Assembly (NCBI GenBank): GCA_949987565.1
Contig: OX465102.1
Location: 13,058,216 to 13,122,215 of the forward strand
Direction of reading: 5' to 3'
Length of the DNA: 64,000 nucleotides
Source: Luidia sarsii
Lineage: Eukaryota; Echinodermata; Asteroidea; Paxillosida; Luidiidae
The notes beneath the pieces were generated by a model. The model was not told the origin of the DNA. It saw only the letters and a list, made by a program, of their open reading frames with translations, and made no database searches. Position numbers and translations under genes: made by a program. Below, in pieces: positions 13,160 to 61,500 of the stretch; positions within the stretch are counted from its first letter, which is position 1, and each line of letters starts with the position of its first letter.

Positions 13160-15717
13160 TATTGGTCCATTAGTCCATTGGTTCATTGGTTCATTGGTCC
13201 ATTCGTTCATTGGTTCAATGGTCCATTGGTTCATTGGTTCATTGGTTCATTTGTCCATTGGTTCATTGGTCCATTGGTTCATTGGTCCAATGGTTCATTG
13301 GTTCATTGGTTCATTGGTCCATTGGTTCATTGGTCAATTAGTTCGTCGGTTCATTCGTTCATTGGTTCATTGGTCCATTGGTTCAATGGTCCATTGGTTC
13401 ATTGGTTCATTGGTCCATTGGTTCATTGGTTCATTGGTTCATTGGTTCATTGGTTCATTGGTTCATTGGTTCATTGGTTCATTGGTCCATTGGTCCATTG
13501 GTTCATTGGTTCATTGGTCCATTGGTTCATTGGTTCAATGGTCAATTGGTTCATTGGTCCATTGGTTCATTGGTCCATTGGTCCATTGGTTCATTGGTTC
13601 AATGGTCCATTGGTTCATTGGTTCATTGGTGCATTGGTTCATTGGTTCATTGGTCCATTGGTCCATTGGTTCATTGGTCTATTGGTTCATTGGTTCATTG
13701 GTTCATTGGTGCATTGGTCAATTAGTTCATTGGTTCATTGGTTCATTGGTTCATTGGTTCATTGGTCCATTGGTTCATTGGTTCAATGGTCCATTGGTTC
13801 ATTGGTCCATTGGTTCATTGGTCCATTGGTTCATTGCTTCATTGGTTCATTGGTTTATTGGTTCATTGGTTCATTGGTCCATTGGTTCAATGGTCCATTG
13901 GTTCATTGGTTCATTGGTCCATTGGTCCATTGGTTCATTGGTTCATTGGTTCATTGGTTCATTGGTCCATTGGTTCATTGGTTCATTTGTTCATTGGTTC
14001 ATTGGTTCATTGGTTCATTGGTTCATTGGTTCATTGGTTCATTGGTTCATTGGTTCATTGGTTCATTGGTTCATTGGTTCATTGGTTCATTGGTCCATTG
14101 GTTCATTGGTTCATTGGTTCATTGGTTCATTGGTTCATTGGTTCATTCGTCCATTGGTTCATTGGTTCATTGGTTCATTGGTTCATTGGTTCATTGGTTC
14201 ATTGGTCCATTGGTTCATTGGTTCATTGGTTCATTGGTTCATTGGTTCATTGGTTCATTGGTTCATTGGTCCATTGGTTCATTGGTCCATTGGTTAATTG
14301 GTCCATTGGTTCATTGGTCCATTGGTTAATCGATTCATTGGTCCAAAGGTTCATTGGTCCATTCGTTCATTGGTTCATTGGTTCATTGGTCCATTGGTTC
14401 ATTGGTTCATTGGTTCATTGGTTCATTGGTCCATTGGTCCATTGGTTCATTGGTTCATTGGTTCATTGGTTCATTGGTTCATTGGTTCATTGGTTCAATT
14501 GGTTCATTGGTTCATTGGTCCATTGGTTCATTGGTTCATTGGTTCATTGGTTCATTGGTTCATTGGTTCATTGGTTCATTGGTTCATTGGTCCATTGGTC
14601 CATTGGTCCATTGGTTCATTGGTCCATTGGTTCATTGGTTCATTGGTCCATTGGTTCATTGGTTCATTGGTTCATTTGTTCATTGGTTCATTGGTTCATT
14701 GGTTCATTGGTTATTGGTTCATTGGTCCATTGGTTCATTGGTCCATTGGTTCATTGGTTCATTGGTTCATTTGTTCATTGGTTCATTGGTTCATTGGTCC
14801 ATTGGTCCATTGGTTCATTGGTTCATTGGTTCATTGGTTCATTGGTTCATTGGTTCATTGGTCCATTGGTTCATTGGTCCATTGGTTCATTGGTTCATTG
14901 GTCCATTGGTCCATTGGTTCATTGGTTCATTGGTCCATTGGTTCATTGGTCAATTGGTTCATTGGTTCATTGGTTCATTGGTCCATTGGTTCATTGGTTC
15001 ATTGGTCCATTGGTTCATTGGTTCAATGGTTCATTGGTTCATTGGTTCATTGGTCCATTGGTTCGTTGGTTCATTGGTCCATTGGTCCATTGGTTCATTG
15101 GTTCAATGGTTCATTGGTCAATTGGTTCATTGGTCAATTGGTTCAATGGTTCATTGGTTCATTGTTCCATTGGTCCATTGGTTCATTGGTTCATTGGTCC
15201 ATTGGTTCATTGGTCCATTGGTCCATTGGTTCATTGGTTCATTGGTCCATTGGTTCATTGGTCCATTGGTTCGTTGGTTCAATGGTCCATTGGTTCATTG
15301 GTTCATTGGTTCATTGGTTCACTGGGCCATTGGTTCATTGGTTCATTGGTTCATTGGTTCATTGGTTCATTGGTTCATTGGTTCATTGGTTCATTGGTTC
15401 ATTGGTCCATTGGTTCATTGGTTCATTGGTTCAATGGTCAATTGGTTCATTGGTCCATTGCTTCATTGGTCCATTGGTCCATTGGTTCATTGGTTCAATG
15501 GTCCATTGGTTCATTGGTGCATTGGTGCATTGGTGCATTGGTTCATTGGTTCATTGGTTCATTGGTCCATTGGTTCATTGGTCTATTGGTTCATTGGTTC
15601 ATTGGTGCATTGGTCAATTAGTTCATTGGTTCATTGGTTCATTGGTTCATTGGTCCATTGTTCCATTGGTCCATTGTTCCATTGGTCCATTGGTTCATTG
15701 GTTCATTGGTTCATTGG
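13160..15717. repeat. 2.6-kb tandem array of an 8-bp unit (TTCATTGG / TCCATTGG)
   Basis: About 320 copies of an octamer alternate mainly between TTCATTGG and TCCATTGG, with rare AATGG, GCATTGG and ATTAG variants. One 7-bp slip occurs near 14713. The minus strand reads ACCAATGAA at every unit, an NF-Y-type CCAAT box. All three plus frames are open because three octamers make eight codons (FIGSLVHW), so the long ORFs here are artefacts. It lies just upstream of OCA2's first coding exon. Confidence 0.97.
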
Positions 15718-16600: not shown

Positions 16601-16749
16601 TCAAGCTATGCCTATCTTTTTGCATTCTCTTGAAAGAGTTACTTTGAAAAGATCTGGGTCCAATCCTCCAATAGCAATGTCAAGGAAGTGAACGTTCATC
16701 AGACTCATCAAATCTTGCTCAAGCAGACAATTAATACCTGCATATTTTA

Positions 16750-17172
16750 ATGCACTATAGCATACTGCACAATGGCACTGCCATGGGCACACGCATGGCT
16801 CCTTCCTTTGCTTGCCTCTTCATGGGTGACCTTGAGGAACGCATGCTCAGTGAGGCTCCATGCCGTCCTTGGATTTGGTGGAGATACATAGATGACGTTT
16901 TCTTCATTTGGACTAGGGACGGTTGCAGCTTGAATGCCTTCTTTGACCACATCAATTCCTTCCACAGCACTATCAAATTCACATGGGAACAATCTCTCCA
17001 GCAGACCCACTTTCTGGAAGTCACCGTCCGGAAAGACCTCGACACACTTACTACTGACTTGTATTCTAAGCCCAACGACACTCATCAATATCTCCATGCC
17101 TCCAGTTGTCACCCCAGACACTGTAAGACTGGTATAGCCTACAGCCAGGCCCTCAGATTGAGGCGCATATAA
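16750..17172 (+). pseudogene. Penelope-like element reverse transcriptase fragment
   Basis: The frame reads GTAMGTRMAPSFACLFMG, then WRYIDDVFFIW (the YxDD catalytic motif), then YSKPNDTHQYLHASSCHP and SQALRLRRI. These are the palm and thumb blocks typical of Penelope-like reverse transcriptases, which are related to telomerase. The upstream palm motif A and N-terminus are missing, and an in-frame TAA follows LRRI, so it is a 5'-truncated relic. The next fragment continues about 40 bases downstream in another frame. Confidence 0.85.
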
Positions 17173-17214
17173 TTATATTCAAATGAGTCTGACTTTCGCC
17201 GCCATACACGTGTA

Positions 17215-17700
17215 TTGGCCAGTAACTTGGTTGCTAGAGGCTATAGTTCTCGCCAAGTGAAGAACTCCATTGCTAAAGTCTATTCCATTCCAAGAAGTTC
17301 GGCACTAAAACAAAAGCCACCAGGTCCCAAGGACAAGCCCTTAGTTACTTCCTACCACCCTTCTCTTCCTCCTCTCAGGAAGATAACTAAGGAAAACCAC
17401 CACATTCTCCACACTTCAGATCGTCTGGCTGATGCCATTCCTAATTCGCCTGTTTTGGCTTTCAGGCGCCCCCGTAACCTGCGTGACTTAATTGTCCGAG
17501 CAGAGGTTTCCCCTTTGGACACTTCACCTCCCACTAAATTTAGTAAATTTAAGTGTACCTCGAAATGCATTGTTTGCAAGACACATGTCAAGGAAAATAT
17601 AGACTCTTTCAATGGAAATTCTTCTGGAACTACCCACACGACCTATGGCTCTATCACGTGCACTACCTCAAACATCATAATTATACCTCGTCTCATGTAG
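17215..17700 (+). pseudogene. Penelope-like element ORF, connector region
   Basis: Reads ASNLVARGYSSRQVKNSIAK and later FKCTSKCIVCKTHV, a cysteine-containing linker typical between reverse transcriptase and endonuclease in these elements. The frame differs from both the upstream RT piece and the downstream GIY-YIG piece, showing at least two frame-disrupting changes. Confidence 0.75.
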
Positions 17701-17974
17701 AGTTTGCAATGTTCAGTATGTTGGCGAGACCAAAAACACCCTCAAAAAACGTATCTATGGCCATAGGTCTACAATCAAAACCGGTAAAATGGACACCCCT
17801 GTTGGGTATCACTTCAATCTCCCTGATCATTCGATATCAGATATGAGTGTACTGGGCATTGAATCCCTTGGTAACCGTAGTAATGCTGTCCGTCTAAGCC
17901 GTGAGAAAATGTGGATGAAGCGTCTTCGGACTATTCAACCACATGGTCTCAACATCCAGGAGGGTAATGACTAA
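17696..17974 (+). pseudogene. Penelope-like element GIY-YIG endonuclease domain
   Basis: From CRVCNVQYVGETKNT the frame reads KKRIYGHRSTIK, then HFNLPDHSISDM and ends GLNIQEGND before TAA. This is the C-terminal GIY-YIG nuclease that nicks target DNA in Penelope-like elements; the first core motif is present as VQYVGET. The domain itself looks intact for about 92 residues, but it is separated from the RT by frameshifts. Confidence 0.8.
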
Positions 17975-18305
17975 CACCATGCTGCTTTCTGATAATCCTT
18001 CTTTTATGTTCACTTCTTCACACTTCTTTCTTTGATCTTTCCCCTTCTTCTCACTAATCCCTACCCTACTCCTTGCCCTTCCCTTTGATCTCACCCTATA
18101 CCAGCTTTCCTCTTTGTCCTTTGTTTCTCATCCGTGTCCTATTCACTCTCTTCCCCCTTCCTTCCCCCGTACATGTATCTGTGTTGTCCTTGTCACTCTG
18201 CCTTTGAGAAAGGTCCTGCTAGGATCGAAACGTCAGGCCCACTAAATTTTAAGATTTGCATTTTGGTAATTTTAGTCAGTAAGCAGTTTGCAACATTTTT
18301 GTATA
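17975..18305 (+). mobile_element. Penelope-like element 3' UTR and terminal repeat
   Basis: A pyrimidine-rich UTR ends in CTTTGAGAAAGGTCCTGC, GGATCGAAACGTCAGGCCC and GTCAGTAAGCAGTTTGCAAC. This terminal sequence is the source of the many solo and inverted ends elsewhere in the window. It contains a degenerate hammerhead-like core (see findings). Confidence 0.8.
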
Positions 18306-43500: not shown

Positions 43501-46500
43501 GTTTGGTCAAGTTCAATGTGAGTATCGAGTAGTCCCAGTTTGGTCAAGTTCAATGTGAGTACTGAGTAGTCCCAGTTTGGTCAAGTTCAACATGAGTGCT
43601 GATTAGTTCCAGTTTGGTCAAGTTCAATGTGAGTATCGAGTAGTCCCAGTTTGGTCAAGTTCAATGTGAGTACTGAGTAGTCCCAGTTTGGTCAGGTTCA
43701 ACATGAGTGCTGAGTAGTCCCAGTTTGGTCAAGTTCAATGTGAGTGCTGAGTAGTCCCAGTTTGGTCAAGTTCAATGTGAGTGCTGAGTAGTCCCAGTTT
43801 GGTCAAGTTCAATGTGAGTACTGAGTAGTCCCAGTTTGGTCAAGTTCAACGTGAGTACCGAGTAGTCCCAGTTTGGTCAAGTTCAATGTGAGTGCTGAGT
43901 AGTCCCAGTTTGGTCAAGTTCAACATGAGTGCTGAGTAGTCCCAGTTTGGTCAAGTTCAATGTGAGTGCTGAGTAGTCCCAGTTTGGTCAAGTTCAATGT
44001 GAGTACCGAGTAGTCCCAGTTTGGTCAAGTTCAACGTGAGCACTGAGTAGTCCCAGTTTGGTCAAGTTCAATGTGAGTACCGAGTAGTCCCAGTTTGGTC
44101 AAGTTCAACGTCAGCACTGAGTAGTCCCAAGTTGGTCAAATTCAACAAGAACAGTCCCCAGTAGTCACAAAACTCATTGTGATGACTCTAAGGCGACAAG
44201 AACCTACATGTAAGACCTTATGATTGGTCCCAACTTACAATGGGTCATACCAAGTGCGGTGATAAATTGAGATCGCTCAAGTGTCTCCAAACAGATTGGT
44301 GAAGCAGTCCTCAGGCGAAACATTACTTCCTTCAAGCTGACATTGTGAGCCAGCAAACATATCATTTTCTACGATGAACCTCTTCTCTAGCATTAACAAT
44401 TTACATTGCCCTTATCCAAATATGTATATCAAGTCAGGAAAACTGACTTGGAAATTCCAAATAAGATTTTAGACAAAAATAGCAAGCTGAACTAAACTGG
44501 ACCGGGGATTTGGACCCGGGCCTTGGGTTTGACGTCCCGGCGCGGACTACAACTGAGCTTATCCAGCCCATGGAATGTTGGGCTGCAGGAAATGGCACGT
44601 GAGGCAGAGTCATTCACAGCCAACAACATGTTGCATTGTCTGCAAGCGTCTGGCGTATCATAATCCCACTGGCAGTTCGCAGAGGATGACTCTGTTGTGA
44701 TTCATCGCCTATTTCTTGTTGTTCAGCAGTCTGCACAACACTAGGTCTTTCCTTAGCTCTTGCTTGCTCTGTCTCTCTGTCTGCCTGTCTGTCTCGCTCC
44801 TCCCTACCTCCCTCCACCTCTCCCTCCCCTCCCTCCCCTCCCTCCCCTCCCTCCCCCTCCATCCCTCCATCTCTCCCTCCCCCTCCCTCCCCCTCCCTTC
44901 CCCCTCCCTTCCCCCTCCCTTCCCCCCATCCCTCCATCTCTCCCTCCCCTTCCCTCCCCCTCCATCCCTCCATCTCTCCCTCCCCCTCCCTCCCCCTCCC
45001 TCCCCCTCCCTTCCCCCTCCCTCCCCCTCCATCCCTCCATCTCTCCCTCCCCCTCCCTCCCCCTCCAGCCCCTCCCTTCCCCCTCCCTCCCCCTCCATCC
45101 CTCCATCTCTCCCTCCCCCTCCCTCCCTCCATCTCTCCCTCCCCTCCCTCCATCCCTCCCTTTGTTTTGTCTGTCTGTTTAATAGTGTGTTTGTTTGTCT
45201 GTTTGTAAAAAAAACGAAATGACTTTTGGTATCCAACTTTGTTTTAGAAACATCAAGAAAAGCCATTTCATTGTCAGTTCAGCCCAGACAGAGCCAAGAT
45301 TCTCCTTATAACCGTTCCATGTCTTTCTTCTTTCTGGCACATCTACATGTACATGTACATGTACTTCCCCCTCCCATTGAGACCTACCATGCCTACATTT
45401 ACACATAGGCAGCATGTAAAGATAATTGCGTGTGAGACGATGTGGTCTGGAGCGGAGGGGGAGGGGGAGGGGAGGAACCGGCAGGAGTGTTGCTGCAAAT
45501 GGAGCATGCGTGTGCGTGCGTTGTATGTGTTAGGGCGGATGTGGGTGAAATGAATGTGCAATTCCACCTCCCACCCCCAACCCCACCTCCCATGCTGCCA
45601 CAAACTGTCTCAAACTGATGATTTATTGGGTGCCCTTAGGGAGCAGGGTGACCCTATGTAACTGTAGGTCTGCAAGTCTGATGATTTGTACTGCTTCATT
45701 GGCAGGGTAGACATGGGGGTGGGGGTTGAAGAAGGGGGATGTGAAATAGAAATGGGGTTGAGTTGACCCGAGTCAGCAGAAGTTGAATACTGAAGTTGAA
45801 AGCCAAAGGCTGTCCGCATGTTTGCTGTCCGTATAGCTAACGCTGCTTGCTTTTGTCTTTGTTGCTATTGCTGCTGGTGCTGGCATTTTTTTTGGCTGCC
45901 AAAACATTGAGTTGCTGGCTCTTTTCAGCGCCATACTAAATGTACATCTCTTCTTAAGAGATGATATACAAACATCCAACTTATTGCAATTGCTGTTGGT
46001 TGGCACTGTTGCATTTGCTACTCTTGCTGAGGTACATGTAACTGAGGTTTTTCGTTGCTGTTGCTGTTAATGCTGCTGTTGTTGTTATGGCTGCTTTTGC
46101 TGTTGTGTGCTGTTATTGCTGCTGCTGGTTGCTGATATTGCTACTGCTGCTACAGCTACCACATGTACATGTACACGTACATGTTGTTGCTGCCATTCCT
46201 GAAATTCCCATTGCTGTAATACTGCTGTTGCTCCCACCCCAGTTGCCAATGCTGCTGCTGTTGTGGATGCTATCGGTTCTTTTCTTTTTTCTGCTGCTCC
46301 TGCTACTACTGTTCTCTGTTTCATTATACTTTGCATCTAACACAGCCTAAAGCTCCAAAATTGCACACACCTTTTCGGAGGCATCAGAAAATTAGCAAAG
46401 CAATACGGTAACAGTTTACCTGCCGCTAATCTTGGCTTTGTTTCTTTTCAACCTGTTCTTTCATAGCTTTGTTCTGTGCTCGTATTTATTCTGCAAACAG

Positions 46501-49500: not shown

Positions 49501-52500
49501 GCAGATGGCCCACTGTGATTTGAGATGATTCAATGCAACATGATGTTGGCCAATCCTTCCCCTGCCCCCCCCCCCTCCACCCGACTTACTCACTAGGGAT
49601 TGATTTCTTACCCAAAACAAGTGCCAGGAATAGGCCGTGACACCACGTATGAAGTCATCTCTTTTTAGAATGAGTGTGGCACTGAGAAGAACGGGCCTCA
49701 GATTGGAAATGTTTTTGGGAAGGTTACAGGTTGAGTGTGTTGCTCTGAAAAGAGCAGGGTACAGAATTATTATGGCTGTTAGAAGAGCCGGTGAAAAAGA
49801 TGAGTATGGCTCTGAGAAGAGGCAGCAACAAAATAAGTTTGGCTCTAAGAAGGGCCAGTGAAAGAATGAGTATAGCTCTGAGAAGAGCCTGTGAAAGAAT
49901 GAGTATAGCTCTGAGAAGAGCCTGTGAAAGATTGGTTGTGGCTCTGAGAAGAGCCTGTGAAAGATTGGTTGTGGCTCTGAGAAGAGCTGGTGAAAGAATG
50001 AACATACATGTACATGTAGCTCTGAGAAGAGTGGGAGTATAGCTCTGAGAAGGGCCAGCAACAGAATTAGTGTGGCTCTGAGAAGAGCTGGTGAAAGAAT
50101 GAGCATAGCTCTGAGAAAAGCCTGTGAAAGAATGAGTATAGCTCTGAGAAGAGCCTGTGAAAGAATGAGTATAGCTCTGAGAAGAGCCTGTGAAAGATTG
50201 AGTGTACATGTACATGTAGCTCTGAGAAAAGCATGTGAAAGATTGAGTATAGCTCTGAGAAAAGCCTGTGGACAAGGGTGAAAGAATGAGCATAGCTCTG
50301 AGAAAAGCCTGTGAACAAGGGTGAAAGAATGAGCATACATGTAGCTCTGAGAAAAGCCTGTGAAAGAATGAGTATAGCTCTTAGAAGAGTCTGTGAAAGA
50401 TTGAGGATACATCTAGCTCTTAGAAGAGCCTGTGAACAATTGAGTATAGCTCTGAGAAGAGCCTGTGAAAGATTGAGTGTACATGTACATGTAGCTCTGA
50501 GAAAAGCCTGTGAAAGATTGAGTATAGCTCTGAGAAGAGCCTGTGAACAAGGGTGAAATAATGAGTATAGCTCTGAGAAAAGCCTGTTAAAGATTGAGTG
50601 TACATGTAGCTCTGAGAAAAGCCTGTGAAAGATTGAGTATAGCTCTGAGAAGAGCCTGTGAAAGAATGAGTATAGCTCTGAGAAGAGCCTGTGAAAGAAT
50701 GAGTATAGCTCTGAGAAGAGCCTGTGAAAGATTGAGTGTGGCTCTGAGAAGAGCATGTGAAAGATTGAGTGTGGCTCTGAGAAGAGCCTGTGAAAGAATG
50801 AGTATAGCTCTGAGAAGAGCCTGTGAAAGAATGAGTATAGCTCTGAGAAGAGCCTGTGAAAGATTGAGTGTGGCTCTGAGAAGAGCCAGTAACAGAGTAC
50901 TGTTCTGAGGCTATCAACATGAAGTGATACTAAGTTCTCTTTGGTGTGTTTTTATGCAATTAGTATATATATATATTTTTTTTAATCTTCATCTGGTCTC
51001 TGAACAAGTGTGCCCTGCAGAAATTGCATCATGTGCATAAGGTCCACTTCCAAGACCCTAAGGCCCCACAATTACAGTCTACCGGTCCCACCGTATGCTT
51101 ATCCTCTACAGCCTGTCACCAGCACAGACACTATGGTCAAGAGTGGCCTCTCCACCAATGTCAGCACCAGGCACCAGGTCATCACCGCCATGAAGGAATA
51201 TGAGAACAAGAGCTTTGAGGTAGGCCAGAAAACCACACCCATGAAATCTTATCGATACGAAATAACAGACAGCCACGTCACAGCCAGCCAGTTCTCACTG
51301 CCCATGGCCGCCATACGGTGTTTTCAAATGATGTGCCATTTTTTTAAAGTTGCCATGAAACAGTACACTGTTTACAAGTGAGTCAAACCGGGCTCAATCG
51401 GATGTCAGTGTTGTTAAGATACATATTGTTCTCTGGTACGCTGTGAAGAGTCTTTGACAATAGGGCTCTCTCAGTTCCCCTGCACTCCTTCATCAGAGCC
51501 ATGATCAGGCACGTAAAGATGGTTCTTTTTCGGTGGGTTAAAGATTTACATGAAACTTATACAGGTTGAAGATGGTTATAGTGAAAATCTCTCACTGAAA
51601 TATCTCTGCCTAAAATGTTGCATTTTGGGAGAAATGAGTAAAAGAAATAGTTTACGTCTCACCGAGATCTAAACTATTTTTCGGATAAGTACGGCTTTGA
51701 AGGCTGCATTTTTGCTAAACAAATGAAGCAGTTTTCGCGATTTTCTCGAGACTCGGTTGGCGGATTGAGCTGAAATTTGCACAGGTGTGCTATTTCATGC
51801 ATACATGTATGTTGGATCAGACAATGTATGGATGCTTTTCTTTGACCTCGACCAATGTTGTGTAGGGGCTTTAAGGTACACAGTGGTAATAACTATGCCC
51901 CACTTCAAACGAGCCCCCTCTCTCTCTCTCCTCCTCCTCCTCCAATTGCTCAGGAGTTGCGGATGGAGGACTACACGACCAACCGCAAAGGGCCGTCCAG
52001 CACTGGCCTGCTGAACCAGAATATCACCCAGGTGGACAAGGGCAGCAGCAGCCTCTTTGGCAACACAGCCGCCCCAGCCTCGGGCGCCGGCTTCTCCTTT
52101 GGCCAGAACAAGCCGGTGTTTGGCACCAGTACCCAGTGTGAGTGTGGCCCAGAGGCGATTTACATTTAGTTTGGTCATTTGGTTGGATGATTTGTTTAGT
52201 TTTTGATTTGTCTGCGATTTGGTTGGTTCCTTTATTAATTCATTTCTTTTTCCATTCGGTACTTTGTTCCTTCGTTCCTTTGTTCCTTCAGTCCTTCCTT
52301 CCTTTACTTTCTTATTTTGATTATTAATTCCTTAGTTCCTTCAAATTTCCGTTGTTCCTTTTCTGATATGTTTCTTTGTTCCTTCGTTCCTTCGTTCCTT
52401 CGTTCCTTCGTTCCTTCGTTTCTTCGTTCTTTCGTCCTTCGTTCATTTGTTCCTTCGTTCCTTTGTTCCTTCGTTAATTCGTTCCTTCGTTCCTTAGTTC

Positions 52501-55500
52501 CTTCGTTCCTTCGTTCCTTCGTTCCTTCGTTTCTTCGTTCCTTCGTTCATTCCTTCCTTCCTTCCTTGTGTTTATTTTTTTAATGTTTTTGTAACTGATT
52601 TGTAAATTTATTTGTTGAATAAAGTGTCCTCTTGAAAAGTCAAAGTCCTTCCTTCCTTCCTTCCTTCCTTCCTTCATTCATTCATTCCTTAGTTCCTTCA
52701 TTTTTACATTCCTCTTGTTCCTTCATACCTTCGTTCCTTTTCTCCTATGTTCCTTTGTTCATTCAATCCTTTGTTCATTCATTCCTTCACTCAGTACCTT
52801 CGCTCCTTCATACCTTTGTTCCTTCACTCCATTCCTTTGCTCCTTTCTTTTTTCATTCTTTTGTTCATTCCATTTCTTCCTTTTTCCTTTGTTCCTTCCT
52901 TTGTTAATTCATTTCTTCCTTCATTCCTTCCTTCATTCCTCCGTTCCTCCATTCCTCATTCTCTGTTACTCTGTCCATTCATCTATTCACCCATTGGTTC
53001 CTTCCTTCAGTCGTTCATTCAGTCCCTAGTGTCTTGTCTACAGCAGTATGCAACTCTGAATGGCTGTGGCTTTTCTTCTACAGAGGTGCTGTGTAATACA
53101 CACAAAAGGATATTCCTGTACAGAGAGATGCCCTGAGCCAAAGCCACTAACTTAGATCAGGGCACACACAAGTTGAAGGTCAAAACTGATCTTTGGTATT
53201 GATGACCCTTTCCATTTCAGCGGCCTTTGGGGCCACTTCCGGCGGCCTATTTGGCAACCAGCCAGCGCAGGCCACGGGCGGCCTGTTTGGCCAGAAAGCG
53301 GGCACTTTTGGGGCCACCTCTGGCACGGCGCTGGGCTTTGGCGACAAGCCCGCCACGGCCTTTGGCCAGAACACCGGAAACAAGGTCAGTAGATCGAAAA
53401 AACACAAATTTGGGAGGGGGGGTCTTCCAAACCTGTCTTGAAAAACAGGTAATCTTAAGATCAGGTTTATCTTTTCCCTGTTTTGCACTGAATGGAGCAG
53501 GGCATTTTATTTTATTTTTTACAATTTCATTTATTTAAATGCTGCATAATGGACTGTACATGGTGATATTATATTTGAAGTACATGTACATTTTTAAACT
53601 GTATGTTGTTAACATTATCAAACACAAAACCTAAGTTACAGGATGGCAGCATCTTCGGTTCATAACGACTGTGGTACGGTAGCAACATTGTCAGGATTCA
53701 ATTGCTCGCTCTAATGTTCTTGCCCCTCCCTGCTTCTGACAGAGTCTGTTTGGCCAGACGGCCACCACCCAGAGCACGGGACTGTTTGGCTCCACACCGG
53801 CCACCGGCACCACAGGCTTTGGCACCGGCAGCACCTTTGGTGCCGCCACGGGCTTCACTCAGGGCCAGGTAGGGCACTGATACAGACCTCTCAGTTTCTC
53901 TTGGGCAATCCTATGGGAGCTAATGGGCCCGGACAGATGTACCCCTAGTACATGTATACATATACTGCGTGCAGTTATACACTCGCGAGCTGAACGATGG
54001 TGTACCGCCAGGCTTTTGGATGTCAGAATGAGAGCGGGAAAAAGCTGGGAAATCTTTCCATGCAGTTCCCAACAAGGACAAGAGACCTGTTTGACATCCA
54101 AAAGCCTGGCAGTACACCATCGTTCAGCTCGCGAGTGTATAACTGCACACAGTATAAAAAGTATGCATGTAGTAGGGGTACATCAATCCGGGCCCATGCG
54201 GGAGTTTTCCTTTTCGATGTCATACCCCCCGCAGTGACTGGTGGGCCATTCGAAAAGATGGCAGTTTGCTGGAACGCAAATTCGAACACCGAATTCCATG
54301 ATTTTTCCCTCTTTTTGAAAGTCGTAGGTGAGTAGCACATAGGTATACAAAACCCCTGATGATAGTTGGAATCCAGCAGTCTCCTGACGACGAGCAGAGT
54401 ACACACTGCTCGAAACGTTGAGTCACCGGCTCTTTTCAGAGCCACACTCAGTCTCAAAAGAGATGATAAACACGGTGTCACCGCAAACCAATTAATAACA
54501 TAGGTAATTGTAGGTTGTTTTTAACACCCAATCAGATAAGCCAACATTTTTCTCTGGGTTTCATTCCCCTTTAATGGGCTCTGTGAAATTGGCCCCTGGT
54601 GTGGTCTGAAGAGATCTGAGTTTTTGGGGTTTTTTTGTCTCCTTCCTCTCCTCAGCCCACCGGCTTGTTTGGGAAGCCCACCGGCTTTGGGACCACCACC
54701 TCCAGCACCGGACTGACCCTGGGCTCAAACACCTCCACGGGACTGTTTGGCCAGCAGAACAAGCCGGGCCTGACTCTGGGCACTGCCGGCACCGCGGGAT
54801 TCGGTGAGCAAGAGTGGGGGAGAGGACGAGAGGGGATGGAGACGAGCAGAGAATGGGGATAGGGGTAGTGATGGTTGGTGATGAGGGGGGAGGGGGATGG
54901 GGGGAAATGGCGATGATGGTGATGTTGAGGATGATGATTATTATTATTATTATTATTGGTTTATTTCAAAATAGAAACATCGCAGTCAAAGACTGAATTG
55001 CGTTTTTATATAACATTAAAAAGGTATGTAAAAAACAAGACATTCAGTATAAGAAAGATTTTAAAAAGGAAAATATAAAACTATTACATTCACATCAAAA
55101 ACAATTAGAAGACGAAAGGACACCAAACAAATTACAATGATTAAAATGCATTTTCTATAATCACGCAAAACCTAAAATTGGAAATCACCCCTCGGAGTAC
55201 CAGCCCGAAATAGTCTTATAAAGATGTTAAAAACCCAGAATTTAAAGAGAGTGAACCCCACACCCCCACCTCAAACCAACATCATCACCACCCTACGCGA
55301 CCTACCACAGGCCAAGTTACGAGCAGCAAACAAATTAATGACAGTTATTAAGTACATCGACAAGGGATGGGATACAGCTCTTTTTAAAACGGCTAGTCCG
55401 GCATCTCGGAGTACACATCTTGTTAGAATTCCGCAAGGTAGGGATAGAATTCCGCATGATGGTAGGGATAGTGATGGTGAAGATGATGGTAGGGATAGTG

Positions 55501-58500
55501 ATGGTGAAGATGATGGTAGGGATAGTGATGGTGAAGATGATGGTAGGGATAGTGATGGTGAAGATGATGATGAGGATGAGGATAGCAACGATGATGTTGT
55601 TGACAATGCTAATGATGGGGGGGGGGTAGTGATGAGGATGATGATGAAGATGAGAATGAGGATGAAGAGATAGTGATGATGGTTATAGTGAAGATGATGG
55701 TGGAGATGATTATATTGAGGAAGAGGATGAAGAGGGTAGCTAGTGACTGCCACAAATTTGTGTTTTTCATAAGCCACACTCAGAGGACTTACCTAGCTCT
55801 TGAACAATGAAATCTGAAGACTTCTAGTGAATGCCATAGAGTGTGTTAGATGTGAGCTGCAGTCAAAGTACATACCCTAACTCGACTTCCCAGATGATGA
55901 CTCAGCTCTGCAAAAGAGTTGCCAGTATTAGAGGTGAAGACTATTCGTATCAGTGCCTACCATTGATATGTGTGGTGGATGTAAGCTACAGAGGGCATAT
56001 CTCGTATTCAACTTTTACCCGATGACAGCACAGCTCTAGAAGAGTTCACCATCTGAAGACACTCTGAAGACTATTAGTGCATGTTATGTTATCCCGTTCT
56101 CCTCAACCCAGGTGGTTTTGGCACGGCCACCAACCAGTCCACCAGCCTGTTTGGCAACAAGGGGGCCGCCACGGGATTTGGTGGCCTGGGCACCGGCCTA
56201 GGGGGCGGCCTGGGGACAGGTTTCGGCGCCACCAACCCGGGCTCCTCCCTCTTTGGCGGCACCACCAAGCCCTCCACACTGGGCGGGCTGGGCGGCTTCG
56301 GAACCACAAGTGAGTACCGAGTCTCGCTTTTTTCATTTTGAGACGGAGGAGGACACTGGGAGAGGGTAAAGGCTGCCGCACACTAGAGCTATCTGCTGAG
56401 CAAAAATTCTCTTTTCAAAATGGCATCATAGGGATGTAAGACTTCCGGAAATTTCTGGATTTCCGTAAATGACGTGATTTAAAAAAAAAAAAAAAATGTC
56501 AAACAGGTATCTCAAACTGATATACAAAAATGCTGTAAACTGCTTACTGACTTAAAATTACCAAAATGCAAATCTTAAAATTTAGTGGGCCTGATATTTC
56601 GATCCTAGCAGGCCCTTTCTCAAAGGCAGAGAGAAAGCTTTTGCCTTTGAGAAAGGTCCTGCTAGGACCTGCTTGAGAAAGGTCCTGTGAGGATCGAAAC
56701 GTCAGGCCCACTAAATTTTAAGGTATCTCTACTGCTCATTTTTATCTGTTAAAGGTCTAAAAACTGAAGGGTGCCTGCACCCCTGCCGTGAACCTCTCGT
56801 TTGCATAAGCGCTCACTCGCAGTCGTATATGCGCTCGCTCGCAGTTGCACAATAAATTTATTGGCCTTCGGTGATTTTCAGGAAATGACTTTGTCGGTCA
56901 CCTACATCCCTGCCATCACATGAACAGAGCGTGTGCTTTCATTGGCCAGTTGCTATTTTTTTTTGCTCAGCACGCTGCTCATGTCACTGCACACGATGAG
57001 TTTTCATCCACGGGAGGCGAAAAAAAAAAAAAAGTGTACATATTGGTCTCACGGCCTCTTGAGGCAGAAATATCACCTAAAGTTCAGCGCACACGGTGAG
57101 CTACGTGCTGAGCTAACGGCCACCAGAGACTTTTTGCTCAGCAGATAACTCTCGTGTGCGGCAGCCTTGTGTGCAGCAGCCTTAAGGCTGGCAAAGTCCA
57201 GTGCTGATGGGAAGAATTCTAAGATGGATGTCCTGACGACGTTTTTTGTTTCGTCCTTTGATTCCAGGTGGACTGGGCGGAGGACTGGGAGCGGGGACCG
57301 GTCTGAGCCTCGGTGGCAATACAGCCTCTATTGGCAAGTAAGTCTGGAACCCTGCCTCCTGGAACAAAGCAGCAGATTCTCTGAAATTGGAGCCGTTTCA
57401 TTTGATTCATCCTATATAAACCTATTCATTGATTCCTTAGTGGAAAGTTTGCAGTAACACCATGTACAACATCTCTTAAGAGAGACGATGGCTCTGAAAA
57501 GAGCCGTTTAGTCTGAGAGTTGGCCAGTAATAGTAAGAGTTACCGCCGCTTTTCAGAGCCACCCTCCATCTCACCGCAAACCTTCCACTTTGTGCTTCCA
57601 CCATGCAAACCTTTAAATCTTATCTATTTATTGACTGCCTGTTATCTGATGTTTCGTTGTCGTTGTTTTTGGTTTTTTTAAGTCCGACAGCCAGTTTGGG
57701 AGTGCAAGACCAGCAAGCACAGCAGCAGCTCCTGGCCATCTTCAACTCGCCCTACGGCGACAATCCGCTCTTCAGGAACAGACTCAGTGTGAGTTGCACT
57801 TCTCCCCCACCCTTCCCTAACACTCTTGTCTCTTGGACCTGTTACTTTGGGATCAGCATCCCTTGCTATGGCTACACAATGGCTGTAGTTACGGCTATGT
57901 CTATGCCTATGGCTGTCAGGGCTCGACCTTAGCACTAGCCCGACGGTCATTGTCTAGTAAAACCAGCTGCGGGCTAGTAAAATGACCCATTTTGCTAGCC
58001 CGGCGGACTAGAAAAAAGTAGACAGCAGTGTGGCGACAAAAAATAATGCGGGCAGGGATGAGAAAGTAGAAGCTAAATTTGTTTTGCTTGACCTAATAAC
58101 CTTGTGTTAAATTCAATATCAATTATACAGGGCTAGTCAAACTTGCTGCGGGCTAGCAAAAAACTCAATTTACTAGCCGGGTGGGCTAGTTAAAAAAAAA
58201 CTTAAGCGCAAGGCTTGGGCTGTGGCTATGGTTATGGCTATGGGCCTATGGCTGCGCCTTTGACTGGCCTACCCGTGGAGTTAAGCCCTGGGATCTTGCG
58301 TCGTTCTGCTTTAAACCCTCTCTCTAACCTCCCTTCTCATTTTTCCACCCGCAACAGGAGTCAGACAAGAGGGATGACATCTTGAAGCCGACCAGCAAGG
58401 CTGCCCAGAAAGCATTGACCAAGCCTCTGCAGCACAAGGTGAGAACAAGGCCAGGCATTGTGTGGCATGGGGCCTCGCTTAGTGGCTACAACTATGGCTG

Positions 58501-61500
58501 TAGCTATGGTTGTGGCTATGCCTATGGTTGTGGCTGTGCCTATGCCTATGACTGGCTACGCCTATGCCTATGACTGGCTACGCCTATGGCTATGGCTAAG
58601 GCAATTTGTCCTCATACTCGGCTGTTTTTATGCCATGCCCAATCCGGCCCCTTTTAACAAAGCGAGCGTTTGTCCTGTTTTTCCCATCAATATAATGAAC
58701 TCGTAGCCATAGGCTGGTCTGTGCCAATGCAAAGAGAGACAGCTCACCACGAGAATCATGGAAATGAGATGTATTGCTGCAATCTTCCTGAACAAAGGTC
58801 ACAGCTGGCCCTTTCACCCAAACGATGGCACCAGACGTGCTTCAATCTCACCGTGAACTCAGAGGCTCTATACTTTGCTGCTATGCACCAAAGATCAGGC
58901 TTCTGTCGTGCGGCTTTAGTTTAGGAGTTTGCTGAGCGTGGCATTCCTGCTTGCTTACTTACTTACTGCCCGTTATGCCTCCTGGCATGTAGGGCAGCAA
59001 CAAAAGCTTTCCACTTCAATCTGTCCCAGTCCTTTCTCTGGAGTGATCCCCAGGTCTGGTAGTCATTTCATTTTCCACAGTCAGTCGCCAGGTGTTTTTA
59101 GGGGGGCCGACCCCGTCTTCCTTCTTGAGTCCAATGTAGAGCAGTCTTTGTTATCTGCATTCTGTCAACTCCAAATGTCTCTGGTTCGCTGGACAGGTTT
59201 CGGCCAGGCCGGCGGCTAAGCTTCGTCCCAAACCTCTGCAGGGAGTCACACACAAGGTAAAGACAAAAGGCATCGCTCCTAATATTCGCGATCCAATGAG
59301 GCAGAGTTAGATCAGATGAGAAGATGAGCTTTTCCATCTCTATATTGCCATTAGTCAACCAACTTATCCATCAAATAACCAACTGTAATCCATCAATCAA
59401 CAAAGTAATTCATCAATCAACCAACTAATCCATCGATCAACCAACAAACCTGTCAATCAATCAACCATCTTACCCATCAATCAACCAACTTATCCATCAA
59501 TCAACAAGGTTAGTCATTTATCAATCAATTAATCCATTGATCAACCAACTAATCCATCAATTAATCAACTAATCCACCAGTCAACCAATTTATCCATCAA
59601 ATAACCAACTAATCCATCAATTACCAACTAATTCATCAATCAACCAACTAATCCATCAATCAACCAACTTTTCCATCAAAAAACCAACTAATCCATCAAT
59701 CAACCAAACTATATATCCAAAAACCAACCAATCCAGCAATTAACCAACTAATCCATCAATCAACCAACTTATCCATCAAAAACCAACCAATCCAGCAATT
59801 AACCAACTAATCCATCAATCAACAAAGTTCTTTATTTAATCAACCAACAAATCCATCGATTAACAAACTAATCCCGCAATGATTCAGCTAATTTGTCAGC
59901 CAACCAACTAATCCGTCAAGCCCTCTGCTCATCTTATCGTTCGTCCTTTAGTCCCAGCTCTTTGACGGGCTGGATGAGGAGGACCCAACCCTGAACTCGC
60001 AGATGTTCGTGCCCAGGCGCAGCGTCAAGAAGCTTGTCATCAAGAAGAAGCAAGACGTAAGTTGCCTGAGCATAAACAATGCCCCCTTTAGGATGGCATC
60101 ATGTCTGTGGGTAAAACAGGATGACCAGCCCCCTGTGATCATGTCGCACTTAATACTGCTTCTGACCGACTGCTTACCACTTTGATGCTCGGCGGAAGTG
60201 AATATTTTGTTGGCTGCCTGTATTTTTAAGACTTGAAGGTTTACATGGTGGAAATACTAAGTGGAAGGATTGCAGTGACACCATGTAGCACTTCTCTTTC
60301 AAGAGGGAGTGTGTGGCTCTGAAAAGAGCCAGTAACTGTTTGCATCGGGGAGAATGACGATAGGACTTGAAGGTTTGCATGGTGGAAATACTAAGTGGAA
60401 GGATTGCGGTGACACCATGTAGCACTTCTCTTTCAAGAGGGAGTGTGTGGCTCTGAAAAGAGCCTTTAACTGTTTGCATCAGAGAGAATGACGATAAGAC
60501 TTAAAGGTTTACATGGTGGAAATACTAAGTGGAAGGATTGCGGTGACACCATGTAGCACTTCTCTTTCAAGAGGGAGTGTGTGGCTCTGAAAAGAGCCAG
60601 TAACTGTTTGCATCGGGGAGAATGGCGATAAGACCTGAAGGTTTGCATGGTGGAAATACTAAGTGGAAGGTTTGCGGTGACACCATGTAACAGTTCTCTT
60701 TCAAGAAGTGTGGCTCTGAAAATAGCCGGCAACTCAATGTTTTGGGCAGTGTGTACTCTGCCCTCGGCCTGTATTTTCGGCCTGTATTTTTCTCAGCAGG
60801 CAAACTGGGCCAAGCCCGGAGTGTAGAGTGTAGAGTGTCTGGCACCATTTTCACCTACACGGTATATTATATCTGCTTATTTCTTTTAATTAATTTTTTT
60901 CAATCTTTTCGGCAGAAGTCCGAGGAGGACCAGCTACTGAACTCCAGTCGCTCGTTGGCCCAAGAGGATGACCTCCTCTCCCCCATGCCCAAATATCCCG
61001 GCGAGCTCGCCTCCAAGCAGTCACCCCTGGCCAGGTACAGTGACCGTCACCCCCGCAACTCACCCCCCCTACCCCCTAGCAACCAACCCTCCAGCACGGA
61101 CCAGACTCGCAGATTGTCAACCGATCCGAATTCGGAGCCGCGGTTCCGTTGCTCAACGCCCTCACCAGCACAACAAGCCCCACCCCATTCCGAACACCAC
61201 CAGGCGTTTTTAGAGCAGATTTTTTTAGAGAAATTAAAATCAAGTCAAGTGAAAAAGAAAAAAAATAAAAATAATTGGATTAAACTTTCATGGTTTTTGA
61301 AAAATCAAAACAGAAAAACCGTCTCGAAGGCAAAAAAAAAAAAAAAAAAAAATCCAAAAAACGCCCAAGCCTACCACTACGCCCATCCCAGCAAAGATAG
61401 TTGACCACAGGGGAAGGGCACCACCTAAGGGCTGGATAGCTCAGGTGGTAAGAGTACTGTAAGCATGCCATGGGTTTACGGGTCTAGTCCCAGTGCCGTC

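Follow-up and report, generated by a model that had tools for sequence, protein, structure and literature searches.

A dispersed repeat family of Luidia sarsii joins a Penelope-type minimal hammerhead motif to a histone-type mRNA 3' end signal

Penelope-like elements (PLEs), metazoan retrozymes and replication-dependent histone mRNAs are the described systems closest to the locus reported here. As far as the available portions of the sources go (PMC3846280, PMC6155905, PMC11167929), Penelope/Poseidon-type PLEs have in common with it a hammerhead lacking stem III, an optional tail of ~31 bp, pseudo-LTRs, short target duplications, 5' truncation and partial tandems. The accessible part of PMC3846280 describes Penelope elements with short target duplications, head-to-head pseudo-LTRs and an optional 31-bp tail, and that of a review (PMC6155905) describes Penelope-like hammerheads without stem III. 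Metazoan retrozymes are likewise short and non-autonomous, with hammerheads, tandem copies and target duplications, according to the available part of PMC7229834. Replication-dependent histone mRNA 3' ends share with the locus a stem-loop, an AC-rich 3' flank and a U7-type core at host-like spacing.

The locus differs from each of these systems. Unlike in PLEs, a histone stem-loop and a U7-type site lie between hammerhead and tail, and a reverse transcriptase (RT) gene was not found attached. Compared with metazoan retrozymes, as the same portion of PMC7229834 presents them, the hammerhead is of the minimal PLE type and the histone signal is additional; copy E, the only tandem looked at, does not carry a hammerhead in each unit as retrozymes do. 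In contrast to histone mRNA 3' ends, no histone gene precedes the signal, the context is a repeat, a ribozyme motif is the neighbour and cutting is predicted. Our favoured reading, to which a probability of roughly 60% is given, is that the copy at 54.4 kb (copy C) belongs to a large family of short, non-autonomous-looking PLE-type copies whose histone signal sets RNA fate or timing, the uncut RNA being the form that inserts.

The window, meaning the whole analysed stretch of 64,000 nucleotides, is animal DNA and carries NUP98 on its + strand, with the GLEBS domain (PF21240) and the autopeptidase (PF04096). The first-pass annotation had reported a hammerhead-like ribozyme directly coupled to a histone 3' stem-loop and U7 site at 54384-54462. 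Re-reading of the sequence and a match to the Rfam model RF00032 establish that this motif pair is real and correctly placed. The hammerhead had been described correctly in core, stem II and position, but a single extra base between core and stem II, C54391, had been overlooked. This candidate Penelope-type minimal hammerhead spans 54381..54422 on the + strand and comprises the core CTGACGA (54384-54390), stem II GAGCAG/CTGCTC (54392-54397/54406-54411) and, 3' of stem II, GAAACGTT (54412-54419), with the predicted cut after 54419. Stem I has 3 bp (CTC/GAG) and stem III is absent, and this layout of core plus stems I and II fits PLEs, as the annotation had proposed, and resembles PLE motifs elsewhere in the window. 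None of 30 dinucleotide-shuffled versions of the window contained the full pattern CTGANGA plus stem II plus GAAACGTH. Stem II plus GAAACGTH is present at eight places, with CTGANGA kept only at 54.4 kb; the other seven resemble ends of another Penelope-like family. The covariance check that the annotation had called for gave nothing for the ribozyme, the Rfam hammerhead families being silent at E 5 both in this region and in 1-48 kb. Hammerheads of small PLEs are reportedly active in cutting as dimers.

For the histone 3' model, the same check was positive, RF00032 scoring above its gathering threshold at 54423-54467 (37.9 bits, E 1.7e-7). Three further places within 60.3-60.6 kb also passed this threshold; matches of lower score were seen at 57.5 kb and within the minisatellite of 49.7-50.9 kb, whose unit is 33 bp. 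The stem-loop itself, GGCTCTTTTCAGAGCC, occupies 54428..54443 (+) and is separated from the predicted hammerhead cut by 8 nt (GAGTCACC). It is followed by ACACTCAGTCTC (12 nt) and then AAAAGAGATG. The U7-type site, or histone downstream element, CAAAAGAGATG (54455..54465, +), contains AAAAGAG at 54456-54462, starting 12 nt past the stem at an H4-like spacing.

Copy C is a 5'-truncated element (54346..54497, +) running from TACAAAA at -82 to a short 3' end, as delimited by homology to genome copies and by the 9-bp flanking repeat ACATAGGTA, which forms target-site duplications at 54337..54345 (left, +) and 54498..54506 (right, +). It lies in a NUP98 intron between an exon ending at ~53868 and one starting at ~54656 (by eye), and copies D and E are also placed between NUP98 exons when read by eye. 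Just 5' of copy C, 53926-54196 form a long, near-perfect, MITE-like foldback with GGGCCCGG ends (by eye). Elsewhere in the window, 13161-15717 hold a very long 8-bp satellite, ATTGGTTC, in ~320 copies.

The annotation had regarded the composite as part of a dispersed family, and relatives are indeed found at 45.9, 49.6-50.9, 57.4-57.6 and 60.2-60.8 kb besides 54.4 kb. Copy A (45895..45990, +) consists of a partial hammerhead 3' half and a stem-loop with one mismatch. Copy B (49615..50893, -) is a 33-bp minisatellite of stem-loop units, with mostly TCTN loops, that ends in the family's 3' region; its array at 49742-50893 holds ~30 histone-like stem-loop units, counted from spacers, antisense to NUP98. 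Copy D (57435..57623, no strand assigned) is a head-to-head inverted pair with stem-loops at 57490-57505 (-) and 57545-57560 (+, two mismatches), one 3' end of the short and one of the long type, and a 13-bp flanking duplication matching at 11 of 13 positions. Copy E (60228..60766, -) comprises four tandem units of ~134 bp within a 12-bp flanking duplication, with stem-loops at 60315-60330, 60449-60464, 60583-60598 and 60712-60727, the last with one mismatch. A hammerhead remnant occurs in its 5' unit and none in units 2-4. Hammerhead traces among window copies outside 54.4 kb are confined to 60.7 kb and, partly, 45.9 kb. The annotation's statement that no histone gene is present agrees, as far as core histones go, with a negative tblastn search of the window using four human core histones.

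The family extends over the whole host genome. A genome search, which had been proposed as a check, found 565 exact hammerhead plus stem-loop composites with both motifs in 471 Mb, one of them contributed by the window, against 0 in the backward control. The exact stem-loop plus AC was found 4,401 times, again with 0 in the backward control. H4 matches number 63, of which 47 lie in a single stretch of contig C18; histone genes, with H4 as the sole histone searched, thus probably account for no more than a minor fraction of the 4,401 stem-loops. That stretch, G000:C18:6.79-6.98 Mb, is a tandem histone cluster with a spacing of mostly ~4.2 kb. Exact stem-loop sites were read at 96 places, all within the first 11.4 Mb of contig C1. 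With one site (L029) left out, 60 of 95 have a hammerhead remnant at most 75 nt from the stem-loop and 79 of 95 have the family's tail region. L029 (G000:C1:3753000-3755600, -) is a different kind of stem-loop site outside the PLE-type family: a textbook histone 3' end, with CCAAAC, stem-loop, ACCCC and a U7-type site, directly 3' of an open frame ending in ...GKIQTKLTDFWN-stop. By eye, we take the C-terminus of this frame to resemble a PCNA-binding (PIP-box) end, perhaps of a transposase. Scans of viral, bacterial, archaeal and phage sequence collections for outside copies found nothing. Among the open-access titles and abstracts listed by the literature searches, which cannot show absence from print, no paper joined a histone stem-loop to a retroelement.

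Four host H4 genes (L090-L093), compared at their 3' ends, support the histone-type signal that the annotation had claimed, in stem-loop, spacing and U7-type core alike. The 6-bp stem with its 4-nt loop is present by RF00032 and by identity to host H4. The 16-mer is identical in three of the four genes and differs at one loop base in L090, the only H4 3' end read in the C18 cluster, whose loop is TATC against TTTC. The host post-stem spacer is ACCACA in three genes and ACACAT in one, and in all four a U7-type core AAAAGAG lies 11-14 nt past the stem. When the post-stem part only was dinucleotide-shuffled 1000 times, the best H4 score was reached by few shuffles for copy C (6), the first unit of copy E (E1, 1), L002 (0) and L010 (2); the likeness was moderate for L011 (13) and E2 (19) and weak for Dm (195). 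Complementarity to the human U7 end is modest and uneven among the eight copies tested: the score was reached by 8 (E1), 10 (Dm) and 19 (C) of 500 shuffles, whereas A and E2-E4 gave 40 to 69, and Dp gave 415. The search for host U7 RNA with RF00066 gave no match in the genome, but equally none in its controls. Hairpins in which the U7-type site would be a mere arm of a second stem are predicted; the likeness to host H4 explains the site better. Most likely, the histone signal was taken from a host histone gene.

The longest form of the family contains, in order, an E2F-like site, the TATA-like TACAAAA, GTCTCC, the minimal hammerhead, the histone stem-loop with U7-type site and the end region. 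Its likely transcription start is near GTCTCC, 49 nt 5' of the stem-loop. Relative to the stem-loop, where the predicted hammerhead cut falls at -8, the 5' ends of the 96 sites lie within 5 nt of the stem in 14 cases, at -6 to -10 in 20, at -11 in 2, over -12 to -43 in 14, at -44 to -54 in 26 (7 exactly at -49) and farther up in 20. The 20 sites at -6 to -10 include a decayed hammerhead (L082) and ~5 head-to-head pair junctions (by eye). Two sites flanked by target duplications, L026 and L031, start at -8 and -10. The -49 group starts at GTCTCC, 33 nt downstream of the initial T of TACAAAA, which is a usual TATA-to-start distance, and three of its members have target duplications. From these clusters, copies appear to derive from RNAs whose 5' end is either the transcription start or the ribozyme cut. 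The accessible part of PMC11167929 gives data with no reads starting or ending at the presumptive hammerhead cut. Farther upstream, 78 copies have exact TTTTGGCGGGAA at 70-100 nt 5' of the hammerhead, as against 0 in the control, and TTTGGCGGGAAA is the classic E2F site. This E2F-like-site subfamily is called young because its members are 93-97% identical where compared; copy C is truncated just downstream of the E2F-like part. S-phase coupling is suggested by the E2F-like site in these 78 copies.

The annotation's attribution to a retroelement is supported by target duplications, two 3' ends and head-to-head pairs. In the window, the target duplications are 12 bp and exact in E, 11/13 in D and 9 bp in C; over the sample they are variable, at 7-15 bp. 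They were found for 10 of 22 copies, namely those out of 34 with a placed 3' end, C included, as against 1.7% of 462 mismatched control pairs, and a narrower test gave 10/79 versus 1/466 controls. Such short, variable duplications accompany 5' truncation as in PLEs. The 3' ends fall into two groups 30-35 bp apart, with 7 short, 16 long and 6 in between among the 29 copies with a clear tail (the tail was not clear in 5 of 34), which corresponds to the optional ~31-bp tail of PLEs. Head-to-head inverted arms were seen in D, L017, L020 and L023. Together with the hammerhead, these features indicate that the family behaves like a non-autonomous Penelope-like element.

Cleavage by SLBP/U7 had also been proposed as the maker of the element's own 3' end, and this part is not supported by the copies. 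They end ~50 nt (short) or 80-90 nt (long) beyond the predicted histone-type cut, and 79 of 95 sampled copies extend well past it. In the remaining 16, homology stops 0 to 46 nt past the stem, and only L080 and L089 among them could have ended near the cut. Since 79 of 95 keep the tail, almost every sampled copy was made from a template uncut at the histone-type site. The post-stem region was also considered as the start of a PLE gene, and rejected: although ATGs are frequent in it, the frame of the young subfamily is closed after 7 codons.

An upstream RT frame, which the annotation had suggested seeking, was not found attached at 28 loci plus L029 with one RT/EN query, and as this query was the other PLE family alone, a distant RT could be missed. 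An RT with GIY-YIG endonuclease was accordingly not seen in the family. Fragments of the other PLE family lie at least 1.9 kb from the stem-loop at 4 of the 28 loci, some on the opposite strand, and at L010 and L019 the target duplications exclude them from the element. Because no RT gene was found attached, full PLE membership is unproven; the family works like a PLE end and is not filed as a full member. The second PLE family is represented in the window by a broken RT-GIY-YIG gene without histone signal (16735..17971, +), its GIY-YIG domain matching PF01541 at E 3e-4, just below the cut-off, and its RT recognised by eye without a Pfam match. It is followed by a hammerhead-like end motif with no stem-loop after it (18200..18238, +), and seven such end motifs occur at 8.4-18.3 kb and 56.7 kb. 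In the genome this family is abundant; among the best 150 of 1,924 candidate RT matches, many frames have 400-990 aa and one has 2,313, and from these long open frames the second family looks recently active. It could help the histone-signal family in trans. In a tandem array at G000:C3:16.565-16.585 Mb, the second family has five RT copies in the same orientation, spaced ~4.8-5.6 kb apart.

The histone 3' end might have been captured once by a PLE-type element and copied along since then as a passenger without function. In agreement with this, the stem is broken in some copies (A and Dp in the window and several in the genome), the sampled copies that run beyond the predicted cut are those 79 of 95, and the host H4 likeness of C and L002 extends past the U7 core. 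However, the stem-loop varies less than its flanks: measured against the family consensus, window copies show differences at 8 of 112 stem-loop positions versus 99 of 425 flanking positions (Fisher 5.5e-5, which is no true probability because the copies are related and not independent). Moreover, stem changes are compensated while the TTTC loop is kept. A genome subfamily with GGTTCT-TTTC-AGAACC has the third stem pair changed and compensated, and one copy with AGTCCT-TTTC-AGGACC has the fourth pair compensated and the outer pair unpaired; these stems come from a gap-range search missing the commonest spacing, so the sample leans to unusual copies. The stem-loop is also retained in subfamilies that differ elsewhere. 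Taken together, we consider a mere passenger unlikely, though a serious alternative. For the ribozyme, upkeep is less clear than for the stem-loop: among 51 hand-picked distinct composite strings, 12 show A-T and 32 show G-C at pair 2 of stem II, and 20 have a mismatched C-A at pair 4, which leaves stem II imperfect in many copies.

Convergence, in which the stem-loop would serve the element itself by binding a PLE protein or starting reverse transcription, is suggested by its place just before the end region of the copies and by a lizard PLE whose reverse transcription is reported, in the available part of PMC11167929, to begin inside an AC-rich stem-loop of the RNA. The match to host H4 genes, which extends from the exact 16-mer to the spacing and the U7-type core, makes this improbable. 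A foldback or MITE-type DNA element with a hairpin in its arms by chance would account for the head-to-head inverted arms of D, L017, L020 and L023. Such arms are known from PLEs too, as head-to-head pseudo-LTRs with 8-10-bp duplications (PMC3846280, in the portion available), and with target duplications of 7-15 bp, variable 5' ends and two preferred 3' ends on the other side, we regard this origin as very improbable. In the window, the bare hammerhead core (CTGANGA plus GAAAC) is present at two places, as chance might produce; chance matches or stray histone-gene pieces are nevertheless refuted by the genome counts, with 565 composites against a control of 0 and the family's tail present in 79 of the 95 stem-loop sites sampled, and retain a negligible probability.

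The favoured reading of a PLE-type family with a histone signal acting on its RNA builds on the parts, their order, the copy number, the H4 3'-end likeness and the RNA-type insertion marks, all of which sequence comparison establishes; use of the signal by the histone machinery is plausible. Transcription would begin at the GTCTCC start, and the hammerhead would cleave itself after GUU. SLBP and the U7 snRNP would bind, and part of the transcripts would end non-polyadenylated ~5 nt past the stem. Since the template that is copied continues beyond this histone-type cut, the cut would compete with copying. Cleavage by the hammerhead, 8 nt 5' of the stem, would likewise separate the stem-loop from the upstream RNA, so that the two cuts compete. 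With competing cuts and uncut templates, the most likely role of the histone signal is in a fraction of transcripts, through stability, export or timing, and uncut or read-through RNA would be inserted by PLE proteins in trans. A wider version is possible and is put forward tentatively: the family may have taken over the whole host S-phase RNA programme, with an E2F-type promoter, histone 3' processing without poly(A), and hammerhead-set 5' ends of many inserting copies.

The clustering of 5' ends near the predicted cut provides a genomic test of Penelope-type hammerhead cleavage in vivo. If the histone signal works, retroelement RNA would be handled by the histone pathway, a new means by which mobile elements could time themselves to DNA replication and dispense with poly(A). 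The family would also have spread hundreds of SLBP/U7 sites, some of them in host introns such as those of NUP98, where host transcripts could be cut. If the whole S-phase programme has been taken over, retrotransposition would be coupled to DNA replication via RNA signals and not via protein.
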